From contig NZ_CANMRQ010000009.1 of assembly GCF_947500325.1 (NCBI RefSeq), forward strand, positions 1-64,000: DNA of 64,000 nt. Reading direction: 5' to 3'. Positions 32,683 through 39,292 of this stretch are shown here, one piece after another; position 1 is the stretch's first letter, and every line of letters begins with the position of its first letter. Source of the stretch: an uncultured Lacinutrix sp. (GTDB lineage: Bacteria; Bacteroidota; Bacteroidia; Flavobacteriales; Flavobacteriaceae). A model generated the notes under the pieces. It did not search any database, was not told the origin of the DNA, and worked only from the letters and a program-made list of their open reading frames with translations. Made by a program: the position numbers and the translations under genes.

Positions 32683-33924
32683 ATGAAAAAACTATTTTTC
32701 GGTGCTGCGGCACTATTATTCTCGGGCGCAATATTCGCGCAAAACACTTCAAACTCTAATCAATCTGGCGACGACCAAAGAGTATACGTAAGACAGGCTG
32801 GTACTAACTTAACTTCTGATGTTACACAAAGTAACGGCTCTGGGTTGGGTTCAAATAAGGCTGCAATATGGCAATACGGAGATGGAAGTATTGCTAATGT
32901 TAATCAAATGGGGACTAATAATCAGTCTTGGGGGTATCAAGAAGGCGATAGTCAAACCTCAAATGTAAATCAGGGACTTAATAATACTGCAAGTGCAGAT
33001 AATAAGGCAAGAACTGTTCAACATAATGGAGCTGGTAATATGTCGACAATAAATCAAGATGGGAATTTGAATGAAGCTTATGTTCATCAAGATAATGAGA
33101 CTAATACTGCTACTGTTACCCAAGATGGTACAGGAAATAGTTCTGCTACTTTTCAAGCATATGAATTGGATAGTGGAAGTAATAATATAGCTACTGTAAC
33201 TCAATTAGGTTCTGGTAATCAAGAATATAGTTATCAGCTTGGTAATGGAAATGTCTTAACAGCTAATCAAGATGGTGTAGATAATAAATCTGATGTTGTT
33301 CAAACTTCTCCGCTTACAGGTGTTGGAAATAATGCACTTGTTAATCAATTTGGTGAGAGACAAAATGGTAGGATGAGACAAACTGGAGATAATAATAATG
33401 GTGTCTTTTGGCAAACAGGTAACGATAATATTTCTGAGTTAAACCAAACTGGAAATAATAACTTTGGTTATGTTTCAAATCAAAATAGTTTTAATTATGC
33501 TCGTACAGATCAGGAAGGTGATGGTAACTCGGCAACTAACTGGCAATATGGAGGAGCTACAAATTCTAAGTCGTATCAAAGACAAATTGGAGATGGTAAT
33601 ACAATATTTACTGACCAAACCAATGGAGATGGAAATATAGCTAGCACATATCAAGATGATAACAATTATGGTACAGTGCATCAAACAGGAGGAGATAATA
33701 ATCAAGCATTATTAGTTCAAAAATCTCAAGGTGGTTTAGGTCATAATGCAGCTATTGTTCAAAATGGTACTGGTAATATGGCAAATGTGTTGCAATTAGG
33801 ACCAGGTGGAGATTTTGTTAATGATGCAGAGAACTGTGATTTCCAACAGCCAGAGACATTAAATTGTCCGTCTCCTTTAAATGATGTGGTTATTGATGAC
33901 CCATGTCCAGCACCATGTATTTAA
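32683..33924 (+). CDS. Major curlin-like amyloid subunit, copy 1
   Basis: The 413-residue product has a signal peptide (cleavage after FAQ, residue 20). Most of the chain is repeats with the curlin pattern, in which Q-G-x-x-N units recur every 20-23 residues (examples: DQDGNLNEA, TQDGTGNSS, QTGDNNNG). These stack as beta-strand-turn-strand in CsgA amyloid. The final 30 residues leave the repeat pattern and carry four cysteines (385, 395, 408, 412), ending CPAPCI. E. coli CsgA is about 150 residues, so this subunit is much longer. It has its own promoter and terminator. Confidence 0.88.
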   Translation: MKKLFFGAAALLFSGAIFAQNTSNSNQSGDDQRVYVRQAGTNLTSDVTQSNGSGLGSNKAAIWQYGDGSIANVNQMGTNNQSWGYQEGDSQTSNVNQGLNNTASADNKARTVQHNGAGNMSTINQDGNLNEAYVHQDNETNTATVTQDGTGNSSATFQAYELDSGSNNIATVTQLGSGNQEYSYQLGNGNVLTANQDGVDNKSDVVQTSPLTGVGNNALVNQFGERQNGRMRQTGDNNNGVFWQTGNDNISELNQTGNNNFGYVSNQNSFNYARTDQEGDGNSATNWQYGGATNSKSYQRQIGDGNTIFTDQTNGDGNIASTYQDDNNYGTVHQTGGDNNQALLVQKSQGGLGHNAAIVQNGTGNMANVLQLGPGGDFVNDAENCDFQQPETLNCPSPLNDVVIDDPCPAPCI

Positions 33925-34571: not shown

Positions 34572-35840
34572 ATGAAAAAATTATTTTTCGGTGCTGCGGC
34601 ACTATTATTCTCGGGCGCAATATTCGCGCAAAACTCTTCTAACTCTACACAATCTGGTGATGATCAAAGAGTATACGTAAGACAAGCTGGTACAAACTTA
34701 ACTTCCGATGTTACACAAGGTAATGGCTCTGGTTTAGGTTCAAACAAAGCTCAAATATGGCAACAAGGAGACGCTAATAGCTCTGCAGTTGATCAAGAAG
34801 GAACTAATAACCAAGCTTATGTAGAGCAAGGTATTAGCTGGCCAGCACCAACTGGTAATTCTGTTACTATTAATCAAGGAAAAAATGATGATGGTAGTTA
34901 TGATAACAAAGCTAGAGTTGAGCAACATGGTGGATCTGGTAGTGCTACTACAATTGATCAAGATGGCGATGCAAACGAAGCTAGTTCTCATCAAGATGGA
35001 ATAGCAGGTTCTGTAGACATTGATCAAGCAGGTTCGGCTAATAAGTCTGAAGTTATACAAAACCTTGGTAGATATACAGATACTGGTAACAGTGCTACAA
35101 TTAGCCAAACTGGTACTAATAACCAAAGTTGGGCTAAGCAAGATGGTGATGGTAACACAATATATGCTACACAAACAGATTACAATAACAAGGCTGACCA
35201 AAAGCAAAACTCTATAGGAGCTTATGCTGGTAACACTGCTACTGTAGATCAATCATCTTCTGATAATAAAGCGAGACAACGTCAAGTTGGAGGTGGTAAC
35301 AATGCAACAGCAGTACAGCATGCTATTACTGGACCTGGTGTAAATAACTATGTTGAGCAAAATCAATATGGAGATGATAACACAGCTTTCTCTGATCAAG
35401 ATGGAGATGGTGGTATCGTTCGTCAAGATCAATATGGTAGTGATAATAACGCTACAGTTAATCAATATGCTCCTGGTACAGGAAACATAGTGTATCAAAG
35501 ACAAATGGGAAGCGGTAACACTGTATTCTCAGGTCAGTATGGAGGTAGTAATAACTTAGTTAGTACTTACCAAGATGATTTAAATACAGGTTTCACTTCT
35601 CAAACAGGAGATGGTAACCAAGCGTTATTAGTACAGAAGTCTCAAGGTGGTGCTGGTCATATGGCTAACATTACTCAAAATGGAATGGGTAACATGGCTA
35701 ATGTATTACAGTTAGGTCCTGATGGAGATTTTGCTGCTGATGGTGAAAATTGTGATTTCCAAGCGCCAAAAGACTTAAACTGTCCTAGTCCTTTGGATGA
35801 TATCGTTATTGACGATCCATGTCCAGCTCCATGTATCTAG
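34572..35840 (+). CDS. Major curlin-like amyloid subunit, copy 2
   Basis: The 422-residue paralogue has the same signal peptide as copy 1, encoded by nearly the same DNA (one difference in the first 60 coding bases). Curlin-type repeats fill the middle but have diverged from copy 1 in order and sequence. The C-terminal block resumes near identity (LLVQKSQGG to LQLGP, then the tail with cysteines 394, 404, 417 and 421). A tandem duplication with preserved ends and a changed middle explains this. It precedes the assembly operon, separated from it by a terminator. Confidence 0.88.
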   Translation: MKKLFFGAAALLFSGAIFAQNSSNSTQSGDDQRVYVRQAGTNLTSDVTQGNGSGLGSNKAQIWQQGDANSSAVDQEGTNNQAYVEQGISWPAPTGNSVTINQGKNDDGSYDNKARVEQHGGSGSATTIDQDGDANEASSHQDGIAGSVDIDQAGSANKSEVIQNLGRYTDTGNSATISQTGTNNQSWAKQDGDGNTIYATQTDYNNKADQKQNSIGAYAGNTATVDQSSSDNKARQRQVGGGNNATAVQHAITGPGVNNYVEQNQYGDDNTAFSDQDGDGGIVRQDQYGSDNNATVNQYAPGTGNIVYQRQMGSGNTVFSGQYGGSNNLVSTYQDDLNTGFTSQTGDGNQALLVQKSQGGAGHMANITQNGMGNMANVLQLGPDGDFAADGENCDFQAPKDLNCPSPLDDIVIDDPCPAPCI

Positions 35841-36018: not shown

Positions 36019-36549
36019 ATGAATCAGATTAAAAATAAATTAAGATGTCTTTTTGTAATTTGCTTTTTATGTGCTCAAATTAGTGTAAGCCAAACTTATT
36101 CTGATGATGTAAATGATAATGAATCTGTAACTGTTAATGGTACAAATGTTTCAGCTGGAGTATTTAACTCTTTTTTTAATGCACCACAAAGTATCACAAC
36201 CGCTCCTCAGGGAAGCTCTGTGTTTTTAACGCAAATAGGTGAGTCTAATCAGGCAACTGTAGCTGTAGCAGCACAAACATCAGATATTAATGTTTTACAA
36301 AATGGAAATGATAATGATGCAAATTTAATATATCAAGTGAAATCTGTATTTACAGATTTACAGCAAAATGGCGATAACAATTATGTATTAGATTATGCTA
36401 TTGATACAAATCAAGATGTGTCTTTAGATTTACAGCAAAATGGAGATAATTTGAATTTTGAAAGATTTGGGACTAATCAAATGTCTAAAAATATTAAATT
36501 CACTCAAACAGCAGCATCTCCAACAATTATTATAAGGAGTTTTAAATAA
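36019..36549 (+). CDS. Small curlin-repeat protein, CsgB-like nucleator candidate
   Basis: The 176-residue product has a signal peptide (cleavage near residue 24, after VSQ) and four to five curlin-like repeats (LTQIGESNQA, LQNGNDNDA, LQQNGDNNY, LQQNGDNL). The final repeat ends in hydrophobic and basic residues (PTIIIRSFK), resembling CsgB, whose basic last repeat anchors it to the cell and seeds CsgA. It lacks the Cys tail of the two large curlins. It is 2 bp before the CsgE gene and first in the assembly operon. Confidence 0.75.
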   Translation: MNQIKNKLRCLFVICFLCAQISVSQTYSDDVNDNESVTVNGTNVSAGVFNSFFNAPQSITTAPQGSSVFLTQIGESNQATVAVAAQTSDINVLQNGNDNDANLIYQVKSVFTDLQQNGDNNYVLDYAIDTNQDVSLDLQQNGDNLNFERFGTNQMSKNIKFTQTAASPTIIIRSFK

Positions 36550-36551
36550 AA

Positions 36552-37358
36552 ATGAAACTAAAAGAAACTGTTTTACTTATTGTATTTCTAAATGTGTGTA
36601 TAAATATATCTGCGCAAAAATACTTTAATAAAGAGGTTAAAGCAGTTATTAAAATAGATAAAACAAGTGAGTTTTTTACCTTTACTGCTACGGCAGAAAA
36701 TTTAACACCTTCTGATCTTAGTTTGAGATATGAATTTACTGTTTATAAAACAGATAGTAATGGTAATACATCTAATTCTAAACAGGACAACCGCTTTTTT
36801 TTTAATGGTAGTGATAAAAAAGTATTATCTTCAGTAAATGTAAATGTAAGCTCTAAGGATAAAATAATAATATTATTATTAATATATCCAATTAGTAATG
36901 ATAAAACTCAAGGAGCCATTGGAAAAGACCGGATAGTAATAACTGGTAAAAAAAATGAAGTTGGACTAAATATAGAATTAAGTAAAGAAAGAGTAAAAGA
37001 AATAGAAAGTAAAAAGAATTCTCAAGACCAAGATACATCTGCTAAGGACGGAGTGTTTCTAGAAGGTCTTGTTATACAAAAAACATTAACTAAATCAGGT
37101 AGAGATTTTTATCGTTACTTTTACTCAGAATATTATAATAGACAGATTAAAAGCCCTAAAAATATAGTAATTGAAGAAGTGCCAGGGCAAAGAAGAAGCA
37201 CTAGAATATCTGTAAAAGTAGATGGGCAATTAGTATGGCAATTTTTTGCAAGACCCAAAAAGGATTATTTAAAAGAAATGGCCTTTACTAGTTTAAAAAG
37301 ATGCCTTATATATTTACAACAATTACAAAGACAAAAACAAACCTTAACACGCTATTAA
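36552..37358 (+). CDS. csgE: CsgE with an N-terminal CsgH-like domain
   Basis: The 268-residue product has a signal peptide (about 1-21). Residues about 165-260 are the CsgE domain (LVIQKTLTKSGRDFYRYF, VIEEVPGQRRSTRISV, VWQFFARP), the periplasmic adaptor that closes the CsgG pore and guides curlin. E. coli CsgE is only about 130 residues. Residues about 28-130 form an extra beta-rich domain with YEFTVYKTDSNGNTSNSKQD near 60 and VLSSVNVNVSS near 91. This pattern resembles CsgH, the curlin chaperone of Alphaproteobacteria; this match is from memory of the family and needs a profile search. Confidence 0.85.
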   Translation: MKLKETVLLIVFLNVCINISAQKYFNKEVKAVIKIDKTSEFFTFTATAENLTPSDLSLRYEFTVYKTDSNGNTSNSKQDNRFFFNGSDKKVLSSVNVNVSSKDKIIILLLIYPISNDKTQGAIGKDRIVITGKKNEVGLNIELSKERVKEIESKKNSQDQDTSAKDGVFLEGLVIQKTLTKSGRDFYRYFYSEYYNRQIKSPKNIVIEEVPGQRRSTRISVKVDGQLVWQFFARPKKDYLKEMAFTSLKRCLIYLQQLQRQKQTLTRY

Positions 37359-37360
37359 AA

Positions 37361-37777
37361 ATGAAACTTAAGTTATTTTTTATGTTATTTTTTATAACTA
37401 CAACTACAACTATAGCTGTAGCACAGCAGTTTAGTTATAAACCATTAAATCCTGCTTTTGGAGGAGAAACATTTAATTACAATTGGTTATTGAGTTCTGC
37501 AACTGCTCAAAACGGATTTGAAGAACCAACAACAGCGAGAACACAACAGTCAGCTTTAGACAGGTTTGGGGCAAGTTTAAATCAACAAGTTTTAAACCAA
37601 ATTTCGAGATCTTTATTATCTCAACAGCTTCAGGCTGTTGGAGACTTTAATCAAGAAGGAACATTTACTTTTGGTTCTCTTAATGTTGAAATATTTGATT
37701 CGGAAGAAGGCTTAGTGATTAATATTCTGGATACTTCTAATGGAGAAGAAACTCAAGTTATTGTTCCTAACCCCTAA
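37361..37777 (+). CDS. csgF: Curli assembly protein CsgF
   Basis: The 138-residue product has a signal peptide (to about residue 22, IAVAQ) followed by the CsgF signature FSYKPLNPAFGGETFNYNWLLSSA. In E. coli this segment binds inside the CsgG channel and CsgF couples the nucleator to the pore. I chose the ATG at 37361, 2 bp after the csgE stop, because a longer frame from 37301 overlaps csgE and would place 20 non-signal residues before the signal peptide. Confidence 0.92.
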   Translation: MKLKLFFMLFFITTTTTIAVAQQFSYKPLNPAFGGETFNYNWLLSSATAQNGFEEPTTARTQQSALDRFGASLNQQVLNQISRSLLSQQLQAVGDFNQEGTFTFGSLNVEIFDSEEGLVINILDTSNGEETQVIVPNP

Positions 37778-37786
37778 TTAGATTAT

Positions 37787-39292
37787 ATGAATAATTACCT
37801 TAAATCTGCAACCTACGTTTTTGTATGCTTGTTTATTAGCTCTTGTGGTACATATTTTAATCAACCATTTACACAAGAACCTTCTAGAATTGGAGAGTAT
37901 TCAAAATCCACAAATATTCTTTTAGATTTACCACCTGCTAAAGACCCAGTAGAAATTGCTGTATATAATTTTAGTGATCAAACTGGACAGTATAAAGCGG
38001 TTGAATCTGGTAGTACTTTTAGTACAGCTGTAACTCAAGGTGCAACAACTATACTTATAAAAGCTCTAGGAGACTCTGGATGGTTTGTTCCTGTAGAGAG
38101 AGAAAATTTTAATAACCTTTCTACAGAACGGAATATTATAAGAAATACAAAACAAGAATATATTAAAGGATTAAACCCTAATGAACCACCACTGCCACCA
38201 TTATTATATGCCGGATTAATGCTTGAAGGTGGTATTATATCTTATGATACCAATATTGTTACTGGTGGAGCAGGAGCAAGATATTTTGGGGTTGGAGGAT
38301 CTGCAAGATATAGGCAAGATAGAATTACGGTTTATCTAAGAGCTGTATCTACAAGTAGTGGTGAGATTTTGAAGACGATTTATGTGTCTAAAACAATATT
38401 GTCTCAAGCTGTTGATGTTAGTCTATTTCGTTTTGTTAAGTTTCAAAGGTTGCTAGAAGCAGAAACAGGGTTCACTCAAAACGAACCAGTACAACTAGCT
38501 GTAAAAGATGCTATAGAAAAAGCTGTTCATGATCTTATTGTTGAAGGTATAAAAGATGGATATTGGAAAACAAAAGCTGGAGAAGAAGTTGATAATTTAA
38601 TTATAGATAATTATAATAAAGAGTTAGAAGAGGCTAATTCAACACATTTGTTCAATAGATTTACTTTTAAAAGAAGAACAGAAAATGTTATAAGCGGATC
38701 AATAGGAGCTACAAAAATAAATGGTGATTATGTGAATTCGCAATATAAATTAAATACAAGTATAGGGTATAAAAGATACATTAATAAACATTTTAATTTA
38801 AATCTTAGCGTTAACAAATTTAATTTAGCAAATGAGAATTTATTTAATAAAAGTTTTGTGTCTATAGATGCTAATTTGGAGTATAATATTATTCCATTTG
38901 ATAAACTATCGCCATATATATATATAGGCGGAGGAACTAATATTTCTAACGATTTTAATAATATTGATCCAAAAATTCAATTTGGTGGAGGCTTAGAGTA
39001 TTTAGTTACCGATAGAATAGGAATTGCTCTTTTTGCAGAAAATAATATGGTTTTTAGTGATCTTGTTGATGGTTTAGAAAGAGGAGAAAGAGATGATATG
39101 TATTTTAAAGTTGGTTTAGGATTAAATTTTTATATAGGAAATTATAATACTAAAAAAGATATTGAAAGAGCAAAAGAGCGAGAGAGAAGAAAAGAACTAA
39201 AAAAAATAAAAAGGCAGAATATAGAAAAAGCCTTGTATAATGATAAGGCTAAAAAAGCAGAAGAGAAACAAGAAGAAGATGGCCAGAATTAA
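37787..39292 (+). CDS. csgG: CsgG secretion channel with extra C-terminal beta-barrel
   Basis: The 501-residue product has a lipobox FISSC (Cys20). Residues about 25-285 are the CsgG domain (VAVYNFSDQTGQYK-type start near 57, WFVPVERENFNNLSTER near 100, AGLMLEGGIISYD near 145), which forms the nonameric curlin export pore. Residues about 300-455 are a second part with alternating strands (SGSIGATKI, SIGYKRYI, YIYIGGGTNIS, KVGLGLNFYIG), typical of an eight-stranded outer-membrane barrel. A charged helical tail (about 460-501) ends the chain. E. coli CsgG is 277 residues, so the barrel and tail are additions. Confidence 0.93.
   Translation: MNNYLKSATYVFVCLFISSCGTYFNQPFTQEPSRIGEYSKSTNILLDLPPAKDPVEIAVYNFSDQTGQYKAVESGSTFSTAVTQGATTILIKALGDSGWFVPVERENFNNLSTERNIIRNTKQEYIKGLNPNEPPLPPLLYAGLMLEGGIISYDTNIVTGGAGARYFGVGGSARYRQDRITVYLRAVSTSSGEILKTIYVSKTILSQAVDVSLFRFVKFQRLLEAETGFTQNEPVQLAVKDAIEKAVHDLIVEGIKDGYWKTKAGEEVDNLIIDNYNKELEEANSTHLFNRFTFKRRTENVISGSIGATKINGDYVNSQYKLNTSIGYKRYINKHFNLNLSVNKFNLANENLFNKSFVSIDANLEYNIIPFDKLSPYIYIGGGTNISNDFNNIDPKIQFGGGLEYLVTDRIGIALFAENNMVFSDLVDGLERGERDDMYFKVGLGLNFYIGNYNTKKDIERAKERERRKELKKIKRQNIEKALYNDKAKKAEEKQEEDGQN

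Follow-up and report, generated by a model that had tools for sequence, protein, structure and literature searches.

A CsgH-like domain fused to the curli adaptor CsgE in Flavobacteriales, and probable programmed frameshifting at a poly-A run in its split relatives

The product of the gene described here is very probably the CsgE adaptor of a curli operon, equipped with an N-terminal inhibitor domain of the CsgC/CsgH fold, and split relatives of this gene would make both a free and a tethered form of that domain by programmed frameshifting. It also seems likely that slippage on a run of ten adenines (A10) would set the ratio of free CsgH to pore-docked CsgH-CsgE in these relatives, that the device is shared with dnaX, and that this state has alternated with in-frame fusion in the course of evolution. 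If this is true, both chaperone steps of curli export would come from a single gene, and in a set proportion. We arrived at this reading by computing the domain make-up of the protein, its fold match, the distribution of the fusion, the frame layout of the split genes, the conservation of their A run, the selection acting on their parts and their likeness to dnaX.

A CsgE gene with an additional N-terminal domain in a curli operon

In the window, by which we mean the whole stretch of 64,000 nucleotides that was analysed, the genes run in the order curlin, curlin, short curlin-like gene, csgE fusion, csgF and csgG (Table 1), and the PF10614 and PF03783 matches downstream of the csgE fusion place it in a curli operon. 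Among the named relatives found, Lacinutrix neustonica (Flavobacteriaceae, Flavobacteriales) is the nearest, at 75% identity. The C-terminal part of the protein scores 65.8 bits against the curated PF10627 cut-off of 25, and a profile search of the 4.57-Mb genome to which the window belongs returned this single PF10627 match. In addition, a profile built from homologues of the protein matches E. coli CsgE (2NA4) at E 2.2e-8. The identity of this part as CsgE rests on profiles, since the N-terminal sandwich described below took up all 50 of the Foldseek matches shown and the CsgE fold was not among them.

The short curlin-like gene directly upstream, in which curlin repeats are barely detectable, possibly has the role of the nucleator (CsgB). 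For csgF, the mechanical open reading frame begins at 37301 and the signal-like N-terminus at the ATG at 37361. Two further features of the neighbouring genes are recorded in their own right. The csgG product continues for approximately 230 residues beyond the CsgG domain, a region with weak matches to outer-membrane β-barrels (PF13505 at E 0.0005 and PorG, NF052316, at E 8.8e-7, both below cut-off). The two longer curlin paralogues are nearly identical over their N-terminal 50 residues, and both have a C-terminal CDFQ...CPAPCI stretch with four cysteines.

Table 1 Features of the window and of the split dnaX gene (window positions unless a locus is named)
Feature	Position	Strand	Basis and remarks
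CsgA-like curlin with Curlin_rpt repeats, likely substrate	32683..33924	+	PF07012 E 1.1e-20; pI 4.05 without first 20 residues
Second CsgA-like curlin, likely substrate	34572..35840	+	PF07012 E 4.5e-26; pI 4.06 without first 20 residues
Short curlin-like gene, possibly CsgB-like, directly upstream of csgE	36019..36549	+	NF007470 (CsgA) E 4.5e-5, below cut-off; PF07012 E 0.068 only
csgE gene with N-terminal CsgH-like domain	36552..37358	+	268 aa plus stop; profile matches, AlphaFold2 model, Foldseek
Apparent signal peptide, residues 1-22	36552..36617	+	Judged by eye; helix 2-22 in the model
CsgH/CsgC-like seven-stranded β-sandwich, residues 29-132	36636..36947	+	NF041112 at residues 33-105; model; Foldseek 2N59, 2XSK
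A8 run directly after the last sandwich strand	36948..36955	+	TGA at once in the frame with an extra A
Linker, residues 133-169	36948..37058	+	Largely low confidence in the model
CsgE domain, residues 170-264	37059..37343	+	PF10627 E 4.8e-18
csgF	37361..37777	+	PF10614 E 1.9e-32; start judged by eye
csgG with extra C-terminal region	37787..39292	+	PF03783 E 2.1e-65 at residues 52-262
Split dnaX	L257:397-2207		GA10G; 0-frame gamma, -1 frame tau tail

The N-terminal domain has the CsgC/CsgH fold

A first-pass annotation of this DNA had claimed that residues 28-130 form an additional β-rich domain resembling CsgH. The domain is present at approximately residues 28-132 (with the motifs YEFTVYK, GNTSNSKQ and LSSVNVN), and its likeness to CsgH is borne out by both of the checks that had been proposed with the claim, a search with CsgC and CsgH profiles and a comparison of predicted folds. 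When searched on its own, the N-terminal stretch matches the CsgH profile at E 2e-6 and that of CsgC at E 0.0078. With the whole protein as query, the CsgH model NF041112 gives E 1.1e-5 and 25.4 bits, which is below its curated cut-off of 35 bits (the short open reading frame of one split gene, L006, reaches 34.4 bits). Across the alignment on which structure prediction was based (A3, 54 members including the window protein), the CsgH model matches 45 members at E<=1, the best at 1.1e-9, and the CsgC model matches 23 members at the same threshold, the best at 7.8e-6.

The AlphaFold2 model built from these 54 sequences (mean pLDDT 83.4) predicts a seven-stranded sandwich of the CsgC/CsgH type, with strands at residues 29-38, 41-50, 56-67, 73-84, 89-98, 104-113 and 124-132. 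Among the 350,542 PDB chains of the Foldseek library, the best match is CsgH of R. palustris (2N59, E 1.1e-5, TM by target 0.63), followed in second place by CsgC of E. coli (2XSK, E 3.7e-5, TM by target 0.79). A single-sequence phmmer search of the N-terminal stretch against the PDB gave no match, a profile of 51 domains found CsgC in the PDB with weak significance (E 0.06) but missed CsgH, and Pfam alone leaves the domain unnamed (DUF1425 at 0.0087 and Tafi-CsgC, PF10610, at 0.083, both below cut-off).

Disulphides distinguish CsgH from CsgC, and in CsgH the cysteine pair staples the first strand to the last (PMC4838910). The window protein has no cysteine in residues 23-133 and none of the 131 matched domain stretches has two, so the CsgH disulphide is missing; the hallmarks of CsgC are likewise absent (there is no CxC motif, and the score against NF007507 is 14.4 bits for a cut-off of 75). 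Inhibition by CsgC and CsgH is described as electrostatic, with pIs more than two units above that of CsgA (Taylor 2016, PMC4838910). The charge contrast that such a mechanism needs is present in the window, where the CsgH-like domain has a pI of 9.46 and the curlins of approximately 4.05.

The low identity in the two structural matches (20% and 11%), the lack of the CsgH cysteines and the 34 other chains found at E<=0.001 (36 in all, with β-glucuronidases and transglutaminases just below CsgH and CsgC) would also suit an immunoglobulin-like sandwich unrelated to CsgC/CsgH function, acting as a mere spacer or oligomer cap. We regard this as quite unlikely, given that CsgH and CsgC lead the list drawn from so large a library, that the CsgH profile is found in most members of the alignment, that the gene sits in a curli operon, and that the free product of the split relatives (see below) is the same domain preceded by a hydrophobic N-terminus. 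We conclude that the N-terminal domain has the CsgC/CsgH fold and is related to CsgH by profile, and that it falls short of two formal criteria for CsgH; we infer an anti-amyloid activity for it.

The fusion is the commonest CsgE layout of the order

CsgE was found in 35 of 296 genomes of the order, and the in-frame CsgH-CsgE fusion is its commonest layout there, accounting for 31 of these genomes; a further three are split, and one (L005) has no recognisable CsgH. In the genus of the window, 11 of 13 genomes have CsgE, in every case as an in-frame fusion. At the level of the phylum, CsgE was detected in 41 of 395 genomes. The collected loci (L001-L159, n=159) comprise 88 fused genes, 43 split genes and 28 without a CsgH domain detectable by profile, 27 of the latter lying outside the order. 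A second set of named loci, which partly duplicates the coded genomes, retained 80 of 115 confirmed loci (62 fused, 17 split and one without CsgH), with F. johnsoniae CI04, F. frigoris, F. gillisiae, F. chilense and F. aquidurense among the split examples. Of the groups coded here by genus and family, g2 is Flavobacterium-type and includes at least one Myroides (L095), and f5 is Weeksellaceae-type.

Among six CsgE proteins tested from Bacteroidota of other orders, three have a LysM domain at the N-terminus in place of a CsgH-like domain (L060:1486-2241, L066:1462-2337 and L073:1483-2238) and may be anchored to peptidoglycan. The other three (L065, L077 and L147) gave no further Pfam domain at E 0.001, and a divergent CsgH-like domain is possible in these proteins.

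In split genes the two domains meet at a poly-A run

Genus g2 has CsgE in 93 of its 398 genomes, 52 times as an in-frame fusion and 41 times as a split gene, in which an open reading frame for CsgH with a hydrophobic N-terminus lies directly upstream of CsgE, itself in another frame that is open over 112-129 residues. In genus g90, which belongs to another family, all three CsgE-bearing genomes (out of seven) are split. Altogether there are 45 split genes, 42 in the Flavobacterium-type genus and three in g90, with runs of nine to twelve adenines and A10 in 43 of them. The 43 splits to which the following counts refer are the 41 of g2, one further g2 genome (L007) and one gene of g90 (L030, with A9); the other two g90 genes, L260 and L261, have A10 followed by C at identical junctions.

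In all 43 splits the A run falls, within a tolerance of 2 nt, in the overlap of both frames (A10 in 41, A9 in one and A12 in one). The usual junction reads GAA AAA AAA AAG, the 0-frame meets a stop 1-11 codons past the run, and CsgE continues in the -1 frame, except that the A12 gene (L111) has it in the +1 frame. One A added to A10, or one removed from A12, brings both domains into a single frame, and in L021 the DNA itself has A11 and encodes an in-frame fusion. A conserved run within the frame overlap, with a stop close behind it, is the layout of a programmed frameshift. The 0-frame ends after a complete CsgH domain: for the short product of F. johnsoniae CI04 (135 aa), all seven strands of the domain are present in the predicted model (mean pLDDT 85.8). 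Among PDB chains this model again matches CsgH 2N59 best (E 5.4e-6, TM by target 0.72), and CsgC comes sixth.

The same two open reading frames could be read as a pair of conventional adjacent genes, csgH and csgE, the second of which has a translation start of its own. A start-like codon does precede the CsgE domain in 15 of the 43 splits, and the stretch ahead of the domain contains a short hydrophobic patch whose best 10-residue mean hydropathy reaches up to 2.30. As this overlaps the values obtained by the same measure for the starts of the CsgH frames (minimum 1.84, median 2.70), hydropathy alone cannot rule out a signal on CsgE. The other 28 splits, however, have no ATG, GTG or TTG ahead of the domain, only 13-30 residues are open before it, PF10627 matches once in each of the 93 CsgE-bearing genomes of g2, and the border coincides in every split with a long A run inside the overlap. 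An independent start of CsgE is on these grounds very unlikely, and we read the splits as single genes whose frame changes at the run.

Both parts are under purifying selection and the run is conserved

Homopolymers are error-prone, and 41 of the 43 splits fall in one clade, as might be expected if they were decayed or mis-assembled, be it through homopolymer errors or as an inherited pseudogene. We find this hardly credible. The same A10 recurs in 41 genomes, one per species, among which synonymous sites are near-saturated (median pS 0.71), and the split CsgE parts have a median dN/dS of 0.095 (42 genes; 861 pairs, with 334 pairs of saturated dS and any with dS<=0.05 excluded). The split CsgH domains give 0.142, and purifying selection thus operates both before and after the shift, as in a gene read through a frameshift; for comparison, the CsgE of 54 fused relatives gives 0.225. 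Single-contig genomes are also among the splits, a second family is affected, dnaX has the same layout (see below), and the tree requires repeated changes of state. The run itself stands out from its surroundings: A10G is present in 40 of the 40 main-clade genes chosen as A10, and the best of 574 other 11-base windows in 26 of 40.

The phylogeny was explored with a quick tree of 131 genes (LG+G4, SH-aLRT support only, with long-branch warnings and 48 of 126 inner branches weak). A clade of 46 genes (SH-aLRT 98) includes 45 with a run of at least ten adenines (41 split, three fused with A10 and one fused with A11) together with L110, which has no run. Elsewhere on the tree, L116 and L030 are split, L106, L112, L084 and L089 are fused and possess runs, and L133, the sister of the split L116, is fused without a run. 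The minimum number of changes on this tree is at least five between split and fused and at least nine between run and no run.

In all eight fused genes with a border run of at least nine adenines, both shifted frames stop within six codons, so that slippage there would give the short product. Two other fused genes have A8 at the border (L016 and L158), with one shifted frame open for 74 and 16 codons, respectively. The remaining 78 of the 88 fused genes lack any run of at least eight adenines in the 70 nt around the border of the CsgE domain, and two products are therefore not needed for the system in general.

The A8 of the window gene, followed by a stop in the frame with an extra A, led us to consider slippage there too. 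The run is similar in kind to the A10 of Flavobacterium, and none of the other 10 CsgE genes in the genus has it at the same place (in L158 a different part of the linker contains an A8). As the A8 is not conserved in the genus, the idea was dropped: the window gene is a plain in-frame fusion that gives the tethered form only.

Transcriptional slippage is the favoured level of the proposed frameshifting

Taken together, the layout and conservation of the split genes suggest that programmed frameshifting yields free CsgH and CsgH-CsgE from each of them, probably through transcriptional slippage. The alternative is that the ribosome, and not RNA polymerase, changes frame, by a -1 shift at A AAA AAG of the kind described for E. 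coli dnaX. It has in its favour that this heptamer is in register in 42 of the 43 splits (the 41 with A10 and L030 with A9), with CsgE in the -1 frame. Several observations make this the doubtful choice of the two and favour transcriptional slippage. Seven bases are enough for the ribosome, yet ten A's are kept throughout the A10 genes of the main clade. In several other lineages the run is followed by C, T or GT (L260, L261, L106, L084 and L089), although L030, L112 and L116, also outside the main clade, do have G. In the A12 gene L111, CsgE occupies the +1 frame, which is out of reach of a -1 shift.

No special RNA structure stands out downstream either. The stretch just past the run is the most stable window in the split genes, but with a mean z of -1.51 (15 of 43 below -2) it is only slightly more stable than in fused relatives without a run (mean z -1.13, 11 of 42 below -2). 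Because these run-less relatives are nearly as stable, we did not use the search for a stimulatory structure behind the run as evidence for frameshifting.

The same putative slip site occurs in dnaX

In five single-contig genomes, GAAAAAAAAAAG occurs 18 times: five times in csgH/csgE, five times in dnaX and eight times elsewhere. In all five of these genomes, dnaX combines GA10G with the same frame layout as csgH/csgE. A profile check in one of them (L257) located gamma in the 0-frame (NF011531, E 3.6e-185) and the tau tail in the -1 frame (E 2.1e-24); the other four (L243, L246, L251 and L253) were assigned by near-identical context and frame layout. Within genus g2, the motif TTYGAYGGN-GA10G is found in 91 of 121 genomes. 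A separate case is L248 (G620), where GA10G lies within an open frame of 617 codons and is read straight through.

Two products of dnaX have been described in other bacteria, through slippage on A9 in T. thermophilus and through ribosomal frameshifting in E. coli (PMC1088944). In the light of this precedent, Flavobacterium genomes appear to use the same slip site for both csgH/csgE and dnaX.

Discussion

CsgE acts together with CsgG, and CsgC and CsgH stop the nucleation of curlins by charge (PMC4838910, PMC5135000). The window gene would supply the CsgE adaptor of the curli (type VIII) secretion operon with an N-terminal amyloid-inhibitor domain of the CsgC/CsgH fold. Once exported by the Sec pathway, the protein would probably use its CsgE part to form a ring and cap the periplasmic side of CsgG. 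The basic CsgH-like domains (pI 9.5), held on a flexible linker, would meet the very acidic curlins (pI 4.05) at the mouth of the pore and prevent their nucleation up to the moment of export. In the large clade of Flavobacterium and, apart from it, in g90, a run of A9-A12, usually A10, would act at the domain border: the 0-frame would stop soon after CsgH and the shifted frame run on into CsgE, and one gene should consequently give both free CsgH and CsgH-CsgE. We infer the geometry of ring and tether, as well as the occurrence and level of slippage; the resulting picture would be of an inhibitor tethered at the mouth of the pore, which untethered copies of this domain may or may not accompany.

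Bacteroidetes genera are described as lacking csgC, and csgH has been described in Alphaproteobacteria (Dueholm 2012, PMC3521004). A CsgH subfamily in Bacteroidetes is mentioned by Taylor 2016 (PMC4838910), in passages that do not state a fusion to CsgE, and the sections on csg gene counts in Sleutel 2023 (PMC10192328) and in a 2025 review (PMC12822426) mention no such fusion. The main text of the GeneTack survey (PMC3711429) contains no occurrence of csg or curli, and among the matches listed in a search of open-licence PMC full texts there was no report of a CsgH-CsgE fusion or of csgE recoding. Two points go beyond the first-pass annotation: the fusion is the common form of CsgE in the order, and one clade appears to make both forms from one gene. 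The presence of an inhibitor-like domain inside CsgE suggests a physical coupling between inhibition and delivery to the pore. The split relatives look like an instance of recoding in a pair of secretion chaperones, one that makes a clear prediction about the two products; F. johnsoniae, one of the species concerned, is widely used in the laboratory. In genome annotations, csgE genes of this kind may appear as broken or as two separate genes.

Comparison with the known curli proteins places the N-terminal domain closest to CsgH of Alphaproteobacteria (NF041112, 2N59), which it resembles in profile, in fold, in its setting in a curli operon and in its basic character, and which in the split relatives is also matched by a separate short open reading frame. 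It differs from CsgH in being fused to CsgE, in having no disulphide cysteines and in scoring below the curated cut-off. CsgC of Enterobacteriaceae (2XSK, 2Y2T) is its second-best match in fold and a weak one in profile; the CxC motif is missing here, and CsgC is a separate gene of the csgBAC operon (PMC3521004). The C-terminal part is CsgE by profile (PF10627, 2NA4), with csgF and csgG downstream; the PDB chain of E. coli CsgE has 114 residues, whereas approximately 140 mature residues precede the CsgE domain here.

As regards recoding, the split genes share with dnaX of T. thermophilus and E. coli the predicted output of two products from one gene, a poly-A slip site and a nearby stop (PMC1088944), and with dnaX of Flavobacterium an identical GA10G. 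The direction is reversed: in T. thermophilus and E. coli the long form is what standard decoding produces (PMC1088944), whereas in Flavobacterium csgH/csgE and dnaX alike the 0-frame leads to the short form and the long form would require the shift. Shigella mxiE offers a parallel in which a nucleotide inserted at a homopolymer joins overlapping open reading frames into a long product; there, however, the run is of U and the product is a transcription activator rather than a chaperone pair (PMC1088944).
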